Below, in pieces: positions 2,270 to 16,755 of a DNA stretch of 32,755 bases. Source of the stretch: a virus. Position 1 is the stretch's first letter. Each line of letters starts with the position of its first letter. The position numbers were made by a program, and so were the translations under genes. The notes beneath the pieces are model-generated. The model did not search any database. It was not told the DNA's origin and worked only from the letters and a program-made list of their open reading frames with translations. The stretch covers positions 1 through 32,755 of the IMG/VR virus record IMGVR_UViG_3300009183_000036. The stretch is one strand, 5' to 3'.

Positions 2270-2559
2270 AAACTCCAGCCTACGCACGCAAGGAAGGCCA
2301 GAATCCCAAAGGTGGTTTAAATGCTAAAGGTCGTGCTGCGGCAAAGGCCGAAGGCATGAATCTGAAGCCTCCAGTCAAGTCTGGTGACAACCCCCGTAGA
2401 GCATCGTTTCTAGCCCGTATGGGTGGCAATCCTGGTCCTGAATACAAAGACGGTGAACCAACCCGCCTGCTGCTAAGTTTGAGGGCTTGGGGCGCATCCT
2501 CGAAAGCGGACGCGCAAGCCAAGGCAAAGAAAATATCTGCGCGGAATAAGGCGAAGTAA
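2266..2559 (+). CDS. Small basic phage protein (DUF6321-like)
   Basis: A 97-residue, Lys/Ala/Gly-rich protein beginning MKTPAYARKEGQNPKGGLN and carrying NAKGRAAAKAEG, SGDNPRRASFLARMGGNPGP and a C-terminal ...LLLSLRAWGASSKADAQAKAKK stretch. The KEGQNP-GGLNAKGR...RR-SF-ARM-G-PGP pattern is familiar from small proteins of aquatic phages and cyanophages (I associate it with DUF6321; not verified). It starts with an ATGA overlap to the previous gene and its TAA overlaps the ATG of the gp10-like gene. No function can be assigned. Confidence 0.7.
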   Translation: MKTPAYARKEGQNPKGGLNAKGRAAAKAEGMNLKPPVKSGDNPRRASFLARMGGNPGPEYKDGEPTRLLLSLRAWGASSKADAQAKAKKISARNKAK

Positions 2560-4001
2560 TGCAAATACCTATCCTTAACGGTATTTACGCCGATAACACT
2601 CCAGAACTGCGGACATCGTATCCGGTGAACTTCGTGCCTGTGCCAAAACAATCAGGCATCAGCAATGGCTTTCTGCGACCTGGTGATGGGATTGTTGCGA
2701 ACGGCACAGGCCCAGGCATTGACCGTGGCGGCATTAATTGGCAAGGCAGCTTGTATCGGGTGATGGGTACAAAACTTGTCGAGATTGACAGCGCAGGCAC
2801 TGTAACAATTTTGGGCGATGTTGGTGGGCCTACGACAGAATTAGTTACATTTGATTACAGCTTTGATGTGTTAGCAATTGCCTCCGGTGGTCGTTTGTAT
2901 TACTGGATTCCAGTCAATACAGTAGCAACATTGGTATGGAATCCAACAGCACCAATTCTGAGGCAAGTTACCGACCCTGACCTTGGGTTAGTGCTTGATG
3001 TGGTGTGGGTAGATGGTTTCTTTATGACCACCGATGGTGAGTCTTTAGTTGTTGCAGACTTGACAGACCCGATGGCCGTAAACCCCTTTAAGTACGGAAG
3101 CTCAGAGGTTGACCCTGACCCCGTGGTGGCTTTGCTAAAGCTGCGAAACGAGGTCTATGCGCTAAACAGGAACACAGTCGAGGTGTTTGACAATATTGGA
3201 GGCGATTTGTTTCCGTTCGCAAGGATTGACGGAGCGCAACTACAAAAGGGCGTTATCGGCACACAAGGATGCTGCGTCTTTATTGAGCGCATAGCATTTT
3301 TAGGCAGTGGTCGTAATGAAGCGCCTGGAATTTACATAGGCGCAGCGGCCACCACGCAAAAAGTCAGCACGCAAGAGATTGACAATATCCTTTTGCAGTA
3401 CAGCGAAGCACAATTAGCCTTGGTCAAGCTGGAGGCCAGAAACGACAAGGCGCACCAACATCTTTATGTGCATCTGCCTGACCAGACATTAGTTTATGAC
3501 GCAGCCGCATCCGAGGCTTTGCAAACCCCTGTCTGGTTTATTCTGGTAAGCACACTGTCTGGATTTGCTCAGTACCGCGCACAAAACATGGTGTGGGCTT
3601 ACGACAAGTGGATGGTGGGCGACCCTCAATCAAGCAATATCGGTTATCTAGTGCAGGACACCGGCCACCATTGGGGCCAGCAAGTGCGTTGGGAGTTTGG
3701 AACGCTCATTGTCTATAACGAGAGCAACGGCGCGATATTTAACCGCTTAGAGTTAGTCAGCCTGACTGGTAGCATTGCCATTGGCAAGAATCCGCAGATA
3801 AGCACTAGCTATAGCGTTGACGGGAAGACTTACAGCCAAGACCGCAGCATAAGCGTGGGGACTACCGGCAGCAACAAGCGCCTGGCCTGGTTCCAGCAAG
3901 GTCACATGATGAACTGGCGCATCCAGCGTTTCCGTGGCGACAGTGATGCTCATGTGTCCTTTATCAGACTTGAGGCTCAAATTGAGCCACTGGCGTACTG
4001 A
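2559..4001 (+). CDS. P22 gp10-like packaged-DNA stabilisation / tail hub protein
   Basis: A 480-residue protein close to P22 gp10 in length (about 472). Its opening IPILNGIYADNTPELRTSYP, followed by NFVPVPKQSGISNGFLRPGDG, is the hallmark of the family (Phage_stabilise). In P22, gp10 docks below gp4 and closes the portal vertex after packaging; later the needle and tailspikes attach to this part of the tail. The rest looks like a beta-propeller-type repeat protein: LYRVMGTKLVEID, LYYWIP, VVWVDGFFMTTDGESL, EVYALNRNTVEVFDN. The start overlaps the previous stop, and the stop overlaps the ATG of the next gene. Confidence 0.9.
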   Translation: MQIPILNGIYADNTPELRTSYPVNFVPVPKQSGISNGFLRPGDGIVANGTGPGIDRGGINWQGSLYRVMGTKLVEIDSAGTVTILGDVGGPTTELVTFDYSFDVLAIASGGRLYYWIPVNTVATLVWNPTAPILRQVTDPDLGLVLDVVWVDGFFMTTDGESLVVADLTDPMAVNPFKYGSSEVDPDPVVALLKLRNEVYALNRNTVEVFDNIGGDLFPFARIDGAQLQKGVIGTQGCCVFIERIAFLGSGRNEAPGIYIGAAATTQKVSTQEIDNILLQYSEAQLALVKLEARNDKAHQHLYVHLPDQTLVYDAAASEALQTPVWFILVSTLSGFAQYRAQNMVWAYDKWMVGDPQSSNIGYLVQDTGHHWGQQVRWEFGTLIVYNESNGAIFNRLELVSLTGSIAIGKNPQISTSYSVDGKTYSQDRSISVGTTGSNKRLAWFQQGHMMNWRIQRFRGDSDAHVSFIRLEAQIEPLAY

Positions 4002-6376: not shown

Positions 6377-6820
6377 ATGACTGATTGGCTCAAAGAAAAC
6401 CTGCAAAGGGTTTTTATGCTGCCTGCGCCAGTCGTGGAATGGCTTGTTATGGTTTACGATGCCATTCAGGTGTTTGACGATATTGCCGATGGCGATACGA
6501 TAGAGCGCAAAGACCTGAATGCGACTATCTGGAACACACTGGTGGGCATCCACCAAAACCAGTTCTTTATAACCAATAGTCACCATTTAGTGCCTTTGCT
6601 AGCAACAGCAATCATGAAGTGGCAAGCCTCAGACCAAGCAGAGCGTGCAGGCCAAGCTGATGCTAGGTCATTCGTTTGGCGTGCAGGCTATTACGACCTG
6701 ATTTTGATGGCCGTATCGCTCACGCATGGGCCAGGCTTTGCTGCAAAAAATGCTCACTTGGTCATGGAGTTATATGGCGAGAAATTTGAAGATTACATGA
6801 AGGAGTTTGGCAATGCCTGA
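6377..6820 (+). CDS. Helical protein with a prenyl-synthase-like DDxxDxD motif
   Basis: A 147-residue, mostly alpha-helical protein of unknown function. I chose the ATG at 6377 over an in-frame TTG at 6371 because AAGGAG ends six bases before it. Residues about 30-45 read QVFDDIADGDTIERKDLNAT, which resembles the first aspartate-rich motif of trans-isoprenyl diphosphate synthases (DDxxDxDxxRRG). The rest is far shorter than that family (about 300 residues) and a clear second aspartate-rich motif is missing; the C-terminus has LYGEKFEDYMKEF. Either a reduced version of that fold or chance. It overlaps the ejection-protein gene by eight bases, so a role linked to virion assembly or ejection is equally plausible. 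Confidence 0.65.
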   Translation: MTDWLKENLQRVFMLPAPVVEWLVMVYDAIQVFDDIADGDTIERKDLNATIWNTLVGIHQNQFFITNSHHLVPLLATAIMKWQASDQAERAGQADARSFVWRAGYYDLILMAVSLTHGPGFAAKNAHLVMELYGEKFEDYMKEFGNA

Positions 6821-14458: not shown

Positions 14459-14812
14459 ATGTCTACTAATTCACAAATTGCATTTGCACCTCTTGGCGAG
14501 ACCGTAGTAGTTGCTGCGACAACTAGTGCACCTACTGGCGTTCAGGCGCTTGTTAGCGGTCGGTTAGACGCACAGGGTACGGGTCAGTACAGAATCACTA
14601 ATGCAAGCGCATTAACAGTGTTTCTTGGCGTTGGAACGACTGCGGCATTGGCTACGGCAAACGCTGTTGCGCCAACCGCAGGAGACCCAAGTCCAGCGAT
14701 TGTGCTACTAGCAAATACAACAGCAATTCTGCGCTTTGCACGTACATCGTATTTCAGCGGTCTTGCATCGTCATCGGCTACTGTCTACATTGTGCAGGGC
14801 GAAGGCCTCTAA
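14459..14812 (+). CDS. Small beta-rich protein of unknown function
   Basis: A 117-residue Ala/Thr-rich, weakly charged protein: alternating beta-like sequence with QALVSGRLDAQGTGQYRITN, LTVFLGVGTTAALATANAVA and a hydrophobic C-terminal half. It resembles small virion accessory proteins with an Ig-like or jelly-roll fold found near fibre genes, but I know no family name. It follows a short gap with a possible control hairpin, has an AAGGAA ribosome site seven bases upstream, and its TAA overlaps the ATG of the next gene. Whether it belongs to the tail or to the lysis block is unclear; composition favours virion. Confidence 0.7.
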   Translation: MSTNSQIAFAPLGETVVVAATTSAPTGVQALVSGRLDAQGTGQYRITNASALTVFLGVGTTAALATANAVAPTAGDPSPAIVLLANTTAILRFARTSYFSGLASSSATVYIVQGEGL

Positions 14813-15033
14813 TGGAACAGCAAACCATCAATCTCATTCTTGGCGGCTGCATGGGTGTAGCAGGATGGTTTGCGCGTGAGTTGTGGACAGCGGTGCAAGA
14901 CCTTAAAAACGACTTGTCCAAGCTGCCAACAATTTACGTTGCCCGTCAAGATTACAAAGACGATATGCGTGAGATTAAAGAGATGCTAAGCAAGATTTTT
15001 GACCGTTTAGATAATAAGGCAGATAAAATTTAA
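14812..15033 (+). CDS. Small membrane protein with C-terminal helix (holin/antiholin candidate)
   Basis: A 73-residue protein with one predicted membrane helix near the N-terminus (INLILGGCMGVAGWFARELW, residues 6-25) followed by a charged amphipathic or coiled-coil helix (KNDLSKLPTIY...DDMREIKEMLSKIFDRLDNKADK). One membrane segment plus a charged cytoplasmic helix is typical of small phage proteins near lysis genes (XhlA-like or accessory holin), but no motif settles it. The start overlaps the previous stop as TAATG. Its last codons and stop form the 5' strand of the riboswitch basal stem, so translation termination here may influence RNA folding. Confidence 0.7.
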   Translation: MEQQTINLILGGCMGVAGWFARELWTAVQDLKNDLSKLPTIYVARQDYKDDMREIKEMLSKIFDRLDNKADKI

Positions 15034-15114
15034 TCACTGGCATACTTAGGCGAAAGCCAAGGACGCAAAGCCACCGGACTAAAGCGCAAGCAATGTCAGC
15101 GGGGTTGCTAAATT
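15027..15114 (+). promoter_or_regulatory. Cyclic di-GMP-I (GEMM-I) riboswitch
   Basis: The RNA carries the GEMM-I core in order: GGCATAC (15039-15045, consensus GGCAAAC); a hairpin CTTAGGC-GAAA-GCCAAG with a GNRA tetraloop (15045-15061); the invariant GGACGCAAAGCCACCGG (15061-15077); a second hairpin GAC-TAAA-GC-GCAA-GC-AAT-GTC (15077-15097) with a CTAAA tetraloop-receptor-like element; and CAGCGGGGTTGC (15097-15108). A basal stem pairs AATTTA (15027-15032) with TAAATT (15109-15114). The G at the position that separates c-di-GMP from cGAMP binders appears retained, by eye. The stem ends three bases before the AAGGA ribosome site (15118-15122) of the papain-like hydrolase gene, so translational control of that gene and the lysis genes behind it is likely. 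Direction (on or off) is not readable. Confidence 0.88.
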
Positions 15115-15127
15115 CATAAGGATGAAT

Positions 15128-15541
15128 ATGGTATACCTTGCATTGCGAAAAACAGATAGCCAAGGCTTTTTAAAAGGTTTATTTTCAAAATACACACGAT
15201 GGAGATTAAAAACCATTTACCCGCATTGCGGTATTGTTGTTGGTGGGCGTTTGTGTCATTCAACTTTTCAAAACAATTTGCATTGGTCAGAATTTAATAT
15301 TGATGAATTTGATTTATTTGAAATAGATGTTTCTGAAACAATTATTTATGAGCGTTTTGATCTGGTTAAAACAGAAAAATATGACTGGCTTGGCTTGTTG
15401 TCGTTTTTGTTCCCGTTTAAATTAGGGGATAAAAATTGGCTGTACTGTTACGAATGGGCTTGGTTTGCTTTAACAGGCAATTTGCCAGAGCAAAAAATTA
15501 CGCCAGAAATATTATTGGTGCAATCATGGCAGAAAAAATAA
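15128..15541 (+). CDS. Permuted papain-like (NlpC/P60-type) hydrolase
   Basis: A 137-residue protein with the layout of the permuted papain-like hydrolases common in phage lysis regions: an early histidine in IYPHCGIVVGGRLCHS (H33), a central YDWLGLLSFLFPFKLG, and a late cysteine in NWLYCYEW (C107, followed by E109), where homologues have W-CSE. Relatives are often mislabelled in databases; an amidase, peptidase or lipoprotein-type hydrolase is more likely. I use the ATG at 15128 because AAGGA ends five bases before it; the ATG at 15122 would overlap the ribosome site. The gene stands directly behind the c-di-GMP riboswitch and overlaps the next gene by 16 bases. It is noticeably AT-rich. Role in envelope degradation is inferred. 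Confidence 0.75.
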   Translation: MVYLALRKTDSQGFLKGLFSKYTRWRLKTIYPHCGIVVGGRLCHSTFQNNLHWSEFNIDEFDLFEIDVSETIIYERFDLVKTEKYDWLGLLSFLFPFKLGDKNWLYCYEWAWFALTGNLPEQKITPEILLVQSWQKK

Positions 15542-15825
15542 ACCCTTGGACTTGGTTTGTAGAAAAAATTTTGCCGCCTTTATTTGTAGCAATGGCGGTA
15601 GCGGTAGGCTCTGCTTCGGCGCTAATTTGGAAAAATGTAAATGATTTGTCTATATCGGTTTCGGTTCAAGAACGAGAAATCCAACTGTTAAAAGTTGGGT
15701 TAAAAGAACTGCAATTGCAATCGGTTAGTAGGTCTGAATTATTGGAAACAATGAAACGGGTAGAACAACAGTTAGAAATTATGATGCTTCGCAGTAAATT
15801 AACCGGCACAATTGAGGTACGTTAA
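15526..15825 (+). CDS. Membrane-anchored coiled-coil protein (lysis accessory)
   Basis: A 99-residue protein with one membrane helix (residues about 14-37: KILPPLFVAMAVAVGSASAL) and a C-terminal coiled coil (about 45-92: QEREIQLLKVGLKELQLQ ... LETMKRVEQQLEIMMLR). The layout recalls inner-membrane spanins of the Rz type or small holin partners, but no overlapping Rz1-like lipoprotein gene is visible, so I do not call it a spanin. The ATG at 15526 is preferred over an in-frame upstream start at 15436, which would lie deep in the hydrolase gene. Its TAA is one base from the ATG of the holin. Confidence 0.65.
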   Translation: MAEKINPWTWFVEKILPPLFVAMAVAVGSASALIWKNVNDLSISVSVQEREIQLLKVGLKELQLQSVSRSELLETMKRVEQQLEIMMLRSKLTGTIEVR

Positions 15826-15826
15826 T

Positions 15827-16312
15827 ATGATTGAATTACTCGGCGGCGGTATCTTTGGCTCCCTGCTTGGAGGCTTATTCCGGCTTGCTCCAGAAGTCCT
15901 TAAATGGCTTGACAAGAAAAACGAGCGCACGCATGAACTGCAAATGTTTACCCAGCAGTGCCAGCTTGAAACCCTGCGCGGTAATCAAAAACTAGCAGAA
16001 ATCGGGGCACAGCATGGCGCTGCGGTAGACGCTGGAGTTATGGATGCATTCAACAGCGCCATTGAACAACAAACCGAAATGGTTAAAGTTGCTGGCGGCT
16101 GGGCTGCAAGCCTGTCCGCTTCTGTGCGGCCTGTGGCGACCTACTGGATTTTAGTGTTGTGGAGCTTCGCGCATATTTGGTTTGCGTTGACGGTGAGCGC
16201 GCCGCCTGCGGATGTGTTTAAGCTAATCATGACCCCTGACTTTTCCGCGCTGGTATCTGGCACGCTTAATTACTGGTTCCTTGACCGTACATTGTCTAAG
16301 CGTGGGCTATGA
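15827..16312 (+). CDS. Holin of the three-transmembrane (GTA_holin_3TM-like) type
   Basis: A 161-residue protein. It has a Gly-rich hydrophobic N-terminus (IELLGGGIFGSLLGGLFRLA), the motif PEVLKWLDKKNERTHELQM, and after a charged middle the block SLSASVRPVATYWILVLW (about 95-112), followed by two more hydrophobic segments. R-PEVLKWLD-KNE--HEL and ASVRP--TYW together are characteristic of the 'holin of 3TMs' family as I remember it. It is followed by the endolysin with an ATGA overlap. It would permeabilise the inner membrane and release the endolysin, which lacks a signal peptide. Confidence 0.8.
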   Translation: MIELLGGGIFGSLLGGLFRLAPEVLKWLDKKNERTHELQMFTQQCQLETLRGNQKLAEIGAQHGAAVDAGVMDAFNSAIEQQTEMVKVAGGWAASLSASVRPVATYWILVLWSFAHIWFALTVSAPPADVFKLIMTPDFSALVSGTLNYWFLDRTLSKRGL

Positions 16313-16755
16313 AACTAGACATAGCCGCCGCGCTGTGCAAGCAATTTGAGGGCTACAGGTCTAAGCCATATTTGTGCCCTGCCGGTGTCCCTACGATAGG
16401 CTACGGCAGCACTTACTATGCTGACGGACGCAAGGTGGCTCTGACTGACCCGTCAATGTCTGAGCCGGATGCTGCTGCGTTGTTGTTACAAGAACTGCAC
16501 CACACCTACCTACCTGGCGTCCTGCGCCAGTGTCCTGTTTTGCTGACGGACGAGCGCAAGTGCAACGCCATTGTTGATTTTGTTTACAACCTTGGCACGG
16601 GCCGTTTGCAAACAAGCACACTCAAGCGCAAGATTAACGCGCAAGATTGGGACGGAGCCAAAGAACAATTAATGCTCTGGACTAAAGGCGGTGGTCGGGT
16701 GTTACCTGGGCTAGTCAAGCGTCGGGCTGCTGAAGTTGCCTTACTAGCTGCATAG
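16309..16755 (+). CDS. Endolysin, GH24 lysozyme (muramidase)
   Basis: A 148-residue T4/P22-type lysozyme that cleaves the MurNAc-GlcNAc bond of peptidoglycan. The catalytic stretch is FEGYRSKPYLCPAGVPTIGY: E14, then C23 where T4 lysozyme has Asp20, then T29. Spacing (8 and 5 residues between) fits the E-(D/C)-T triad exactly. Later family features are CNAIVDFVYNLGTGRLQTST and LPGLVKRRAAEVALL. There is no signal peptide or N-terminal membrane anchor, so export depends on the holin upstream. It is the last gene of the rightward structural/lysis transcript and faces the leftward operon across a 76-base gap with no clear terminator. Confidence 0.92.
   Translation: MKLDIAAALCKQFEGYRSKPYLCPAGVPTIGYGSTYYADGRKVALTDPSMSEPDAAALLLQELHHTYLPGVLRQCPVLLTDERKCNAIVDFVYNLGTGRLQTSTLKRKINAQDWDGAKEQLMLWTKGGGRVLPGLVKRRAAEVALLAA

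Follow-up and report, generated by a model that had tools for sequence, protein, structure and literature searches.

This locus raises the question of whether a phage carries a c-di-GMP riboswitch ahead of its lysis genes and, if so, what that riboswitch would control. A search against the whole of Rfam (cmscan) on both strands of the window, the complete 32,755-base IMG/VR stretch that was analyzed, gave a single match, to the c-di-GMP-I (GEMM-I) family RF01051. The match extends from 15029 to 15112 on the plus strand and covers model positions 1 to 87 of 87, with an E value of 3.9e-11 over all families and both strands, well outside what chance would give. Its score of 66.6 bits, against a gathering cutoff of 35 bits, confirms the GEMM-I identity claimed in an earlier sequence-only reading, which had suggested this Infernal/Rfam check. 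Judged from its sequence, 15029 to 15112 is a genuine c-di-GMP-I riboswitch, and it is probably functional in this P22-like phage.

Aptamer structure and ligand

All of the motifs listed in that reading were found, in order and in place. In the 5' part, these are GGCA at 15039 to 15042, the GAAA tetraloop at 15052 to 15055, and GGACGCAAAGCCACCGG starting at 15061; in the 3' part, they are CTAA at 15079 to 15082 and CAGCGGGGTTGC ending at 15108. All 20 of the 20 modeled base pairs are standard, and both the GAAA-capped P2 and P3 with the receptor region are present. P2 contains a bulged A, which could weaken tetraloop docking. P1 lies outside the RF01051 model. A possible distal P1, pairing AATTTA (15027 to 15032) with TAAATT (15109 to 15114), would extend the aptamer to 15027 to 15114 on the plus strand. 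Both strands of this closure, as proposed earlier, are present, but the helix is all A-U, six unpaired 5' bases lie between it and the pocket, and it is energetically weak: about 8 kcal/mol is needed to force it, and it was disfavored in folding. P1 is contiguous in the related contig L022 and broken in the window.

When the window was aligned with the model and with six further members, G15040 fell at the position of G20 and C15108 at that of C92. The A47 equivalent falls within the A run of ACGCAAAG (15067 to 15069), the exact A47 being assigned by homology. Departure from G at position 20 marks cGAMP-selective GEMM variants, and the window shows no such departure toward GEMM-Ib. G20 and C92 are the ligand contacts named for Vc2 (PMC4744006), and because the equivalents of both are kept, c-di-GMP rather than cGAMP is the expected ligand. 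A different cyclic dinucleotide as the ligand is highly improbable; one candidate would be 3',3'-cGAMP, perhaps as the messenger of CBASS antiphage defense. GEMM-Ib members from Geobacter do bind cGAMP (PMC6456294), and a phage might gain from sensing a defense signal, but the retained G argues against this, as does the family matched, RF01051, with no other clan member in the window.

Gene neighborhood

The window encodes a P22-type portal (P22_portal, PF16510), coat protein (P22_CoatProtein, PF11651), and tail accessory protein (P22_Tail-4, PF11650), together with an Sf6-type small terminase, in agreement with the earlier assignment to a P22-like phage. At the end of the late genes, the order on the plus strand is U73, riboswitch, P139, M99, H161, and endolysin, so the description of the riboswitch as heading a tightly linked block with a terminal endolysin also stood. 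U73 (14812 to 15033) encodes a 73-amino-acid small membrane/coiled-coil protein (phrog_462; 5.8e-10). Its stop codon (15031 to 15033) falls within the 5' edge of the riboswitch, indicating that the riboswitch is intercistronic and does not mark an obvious start of an mRNA. In simple scans, promoter- or terminator-like sites were no more frequent than in shuffled sequence.

P139 (15128 to 15541, with a start perhaps at 15122; phrog_1128; 1.3e-14) is the first gene behind the riboswitch. ATG 15128 is the more likely start, since AAGG (15118 to 15121) and six bases precede it, whereas ATG 15122 abuts AAGG. His33 and Cys107 are invariant in the alignment of P139 with its relatives. A structure model (pLDDT 63) gave PPPDE and permuted Cys peptidases as its top structural matches, all with Z below 5 and the best with Z 4.8, to a DUF862/PPPDE protein; a Foldseek search against the PDB gave no significant match. 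P139 is probably a circularly permuted papain-like protein of the PPPDE/YiiX type. The PHROG/GenBank label "enoyl-CoA hydratase" given to the phrog_1128 family (15128 to 15541 in the window; also in L215) looks wrong, because the conserved His/Cys and the weak fold matches suggest a permuted papain-like protein. Distant relatives of P139 are located among the tail genes of Pasteurella and Moraxella phages.

M99 (15526 to 15825) encodes an N-terminal membrane helix followed by a coiled coil and is a candidate Rz-like inner membrane spanin. Its matches to spanin profiles are weak (at best phrog_739, 7e-4, in L205; phrog_89, 0.0017, in L022; and 0.1 in the window), and a simple motif search revealed no lipobox that would mark an outer membrane lipoprotein partner. 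The spanin assignment is a weak one. H161 (15827 to 16312; phrog_6637, a family of unknown function; 3.9e-29) is a membrane protein with a C-terminal hydrophobic segment, and a homologue adjoins a phage lysozyme in Acidithiobacillus phage AcaML1. Its position and single hydrophobic segment make it a holin candidate. The endolysin (16309 to 16755) belongs to the phage lysozyme family (Phage_lysozyme, PF00959; 3.7e-35). Of the gene names proposed earlier, that of the endolysin held firmly and that of the papain-like protein weakly; the membrane protein is weakly spanin-like, and the holin is a candidate.

The end of P139 overlaps M99 by 16 nt, a single base separates M99 from H161, and the H161 stop and endolysin start share ATGA. 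Because of these overlapping or abutting junctions, a gate on P139 may act on all four genes by coupling. No GGDEF motif, which was sought as a sign of a c-di-GMP enzyme of the phage's own, was seen, and the phage would therefore sense the c-di-GMP pool of its host.

Relatives with and without the riboswitch

Relatives were sought by scanning 2.9 million viral contigs with sequence patterns, and matches were confirmed with RF01051. The wide pattern scan gave 71 stretches, many of them by chance; 50 whole records were tested, and 8 of them contain RF01051. Within the phage group, the riboswitch is carried by L026/G053, L011, L017, L022, and L005/G101. The aptamer is identical to that of the window in the first three; L022 scores 79 bits and L005/G101 scores 64.6 bits. 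No convincing relative of the aptamer was detected by blastn in isolated-phage records, and cellular genomes contained neither a match to the clade-specific aptamer core nor a relative of P139.

The 126 nt from 15015 to 15140 are 100% identical between the window and L026, although identity in most of the flanking genes is about 91%. The aptamers of the window and L022 differ in 7 of 89 columns, none of them at an Rfam paired position, and one of these differences is the loss of a bulged A in P2. P139 is 96% identical between the two at the DNA level, while L022 has a GTA-type holin and an M15 peptidase in place of the genes behind M99. Given the identity with L026 and the replaced genes of L022, the riboswitch has stayed in place while genes behind it were exchanged. 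In the window and L026, holin-like and endolysin genes are directly behind the cassette. The contig that contains L026, 3300020042_004684 (also L094), carries a U73-led lysis region on each strand, and the two regions differ, which suggests that the assembly is chimeric or that the region was duplicated.

M99 lies downstream of the riboswitch in every riboswitch-bearing relative of the phage group. In G101, the riboswitch comes after P109 and directly precedes the M99 homologue; P139 is absent, and the distance to the holin and endolysin is 11 kb. Eight contigs (L205 to L212) carry P139 at 53 to 54% identity and M99 at 56 to 59% identity without the riboswitch, and none contains a degenerate copy above the RF01051 cutoff. 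A holin-like gene and a lysozyme follow P139-M99 in several of these contigs, the lysozyme being reached in L205 to L208. In the riboswitch-less relatives, P139 begins at an ATG that overlaps the stop codon of the preceding gene; in the window, the riboswitch takes the place of this coupling. L208 to L210 have a short open reading frame at the place corresponding to the riboswitch. Of the 50 whole records that contain a U73 relative, one has the riboswitch. The U73 relatives usually end in AAATGA, overlapping the next gene, and the junction after U73-type genes (AAATGA; L093 to L171) is a recombination hot spot for small membrane genes, holins, and endolysins.

On these comparisons of gene order (G101, L205 to L212, the single U73 record, and the swap-prone junction), M99 is the constant partner of the riboswitch, which is an optional regulator and in most cases, though not in all, sits within the lysis region. 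The sequence-only reading had named lysis as the regulated output, a claim weakened by the distant holin and endolysin of G101 and by the riboswitch-less cassette of L205 to L212. It had also stated that it would be refuted if close relatives retaining the flanking genes had lost the core motifs. L205 to L212 show this in part, which counts against an essential role; the identity of the RNA is unaffected, because these contigs are without the whole element and do not carry a decayed copy. Control of the spanin-like cassette is the better-supported minimum, and control of lysis by host c-di-GMP is possible.

Predicted expression platform

A hairpin is predicted at 15106 to 15133 on the plus strand (28 nt; -7.5 kcal/mol; z score of -3.5). 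In the predicted fold, AAGG is in the loop and the start codon at 15128 is in the lower stem, and the 5' arm captures C15108, the C92 equivalent, together with U15109 and A15110 of the P1 3' strand. L005/G101 also has a predicted hairpin, unrelated in sequence, that keeps this register to C92 and AUG (-8.7 kcal/mol; z score of -3.8). Shuffled sequences in which C92, the Shine-Dalgarno (SD) sequence, and AUG were fixed were as good as the native one in 38 of 5,000 cases for the window and 35 of 5,000 for G101, less than 1% each. The window and L022 have an identical platform, which leaves two independent examples.

The predicted cost of opening the SD-AUG region is 9.8 kcal/mol in the window and 10.0 kcal/mol in L022; with the aptamer formed and C92 held, it fell to 4.8 and 4.6 kcal/mol, respectively. 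In L005/G101, the relief was small, from 8.8 to 8.0 kcal/mol. These values come from folding that disregards pseudoknots, tertiary contacts, and co-transcriptional order. Control by an intrinsic terminator was rejected, there being no terminator 3' of the aptamer.

In the ligand-free state, C15108 and the P1 3' strand would pair with the start codon region of P139, and the ribosome site would be held in the small hairpin loop (OFF). When host c-di-GMP is bound, the aptamer would hold C15108 and the P1 3' strand and the lower stem would open, allowing more translation of P139 and of the coupled, spanin-like M99 (ON). The holin-like gene and endolysin of the window may also be raised through their overlapping or abutting starts. 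A translational ON switch without a terminator and with host c-di-GMP as the signal is favored by the folding models, because aptamer formation lowers the opening cost and the C92/AUG pairing recurs; we give it a probability of about 0.55. The ligand, the ON direction, the coupling, and the role of the target in lysis are inferred.

Alternative explanations

The opposite sign, in which c-di-GMP reduces expression, for example by stabilizing the upper ribosome-binding-site hairpin or by exposing a Rho-dependent termination site, is unlikely. The C. difficile class I riboswitch Cd1 is an off switch (PMC4744006), most such type I elements of C. difficile were reported to act negatively through termination (PMC7699646), and the upper stem with the AAGG loop persists in the modeled bound state. 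Against these stand the lack of an intrinsic terminator 3' of the aptamer and the competition between C92 and AUG in both independent platforms. Still less probable is a decaying passenger, a host-derived aptamer whose function has been lost. The weak P1, the bulged P2, the score below that of L022 (66.6 versus 79 bits), and the patchy distribution (present in 1 of the 50 records that have a U73 relative) would fit such decay, but the element scores above the cutoff in three lineages with mosaic neighbors, 126 nt are perfectly conserved with L026, and the platform register is preserved in L005/G101 despite unrelated sequence.

The regulated function may instead be that of P139-M99 as an accessory (moron-like) envelope cassette, with the proximity of the endolysin being incidental. 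We consider this a real possibility, though short of even odds, and it fits either switching direction. It is suggested by the riboswitch ahead of M99 alone in G101, by the tail gene setting of distant P139 relatives in Pasteurella and Moraxella phages, and by the cassette swapping at the junction after U73. A link to lysis is in turn indicated by the weak resemblance of M99 to an Rz-like spanin, by the holin(-like) and endolysin genes directly behind the cassette in the window, L026, and L022, and by the riboswitch-less cassette of L205 to L208, which likewise leads to a lysozyme.

Comparison with known systems

Like Vc1 and Vc2 of Vibrio cholerae, the window element keeps GGCA, ACGCAAAG, the GAAA tetraloop, the CUAA receptor region, and the ligand contact C. 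Expression of gbpA that depends on Vc1 falls when c-di-GMP is lowered, i.e., it is ON with ligand (PMC4744006). Unlike Vc1 and Vc2, the window element is phage borne, lies between late operon genes and over a stop codon, and has a ribosome-binding-site hairpin as its platform and a weak P1.

The sequence-only reading named a GEMM element in a Clostridioides phage but none in a lysis operon. However, lysis-region RF01051 elements occur in C. difficile prophages of the phiCD119 type and in L015. Cdi1_4 and Cdi1_5 of C. difficile 630 are in prophage regions that match the host cell lysis module of phiCD119 (PMC3649979). They precede antitoxin RNAs, the riboswitch on the antitoxin RNA transcript being a terminating one (PMC7699646). 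The window resembles them in having a c-di-GMP-I riboswitch in a phage lysis region; Cdi1_4 and Cdi1_5 differ in belonging to a Clostridioides prophage, in terminating, and in exerting no translational control of a protein. In L015 (3300042923_001810), a Clostridium-type viral contig, RF01051 at 6512 to 6594 (78.8 bits) heads a secreted protein with a Cu-amine-oxidase N domain (about 125 nt downstream), Phage_holin_4_1, and a choline-binding lysozyme. As in the window, RF01051 is ahead of a holin or holin-like gene and a lysozyme, but the phage is unrelated and the first gene is different.

The methylophage Melnitz carries a glutamine riboswitch, associated with tmRNA; a speculative link of this riboswitch to lysis control was proposed (PMC9004378). 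It shares with the window a phage-borne riboswitch and a proposed lysis link, but the ligand and family are different. Development of vibriophage VP882 depends on host c-di-GMP, with the effector unknown (PMC11315295); unlike in the window, the response is a lysogeny decision, and no riboswitch was described. The riboswitch class is already known; what is new is the P22-like phage, the predicted translational platform, and the intercistronic site, which spans a stop codon. Our literature search revealed no account of a c-di-GMP-I riboswitch in such a P22-like intercistronic setting, which does not prove that none exists.

Other RNA elements were met in the viral contigs. In Firmicutes-like contigs (L188 to L196; G041, G037, G046, G050, G042, G010, G014, and G031), RF01051 precedes genes for single-domain response regulators (MNTVLLADDSKFMR...) or other small genes; two copies occur in G042. 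Most of these matches head receiver domain or other small genes, not lysis genes, and the contigs may be prophage edges or host flanks. L217 has RF01051 (87.6 bits) and a pemK RNA within 1.4 kb (2237 to 2324 and 3601 to 3681), with recombinase genes also on the contig. Two viral contigs that surfaced only because of a chance pattern match carry Polynucleobacter-1 RNA (RF01718), at 3326 to 3470 of L006 and at 2406 to 2548 (minus strand) of L018.

Biological meaning

The lysis-region RF01051 elements of Clostridium-type phages and of an unrelated podophage suggest repeated recruitment of this riboswitch. For the P22-like phage, in which no integrase was recognized and whose host is probably Gram negative, we tentatively propose, as a rather doubtful extension of the ON switch, that the riboswitch gates outer membrane rupture and lysis on host c-di-GMP, which would favor release from high-c-di-GMP (sessile) cells. 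A phage-borne receptor in a lysis region provides a concrete case beside VP882, in which host c-di-GMP affects a phage decision (PMC11315295). If the proposal is true, a bacterial lifestyle messenger would be linked directly to the last step of the phage cycle, with the signal read by RNA alone.
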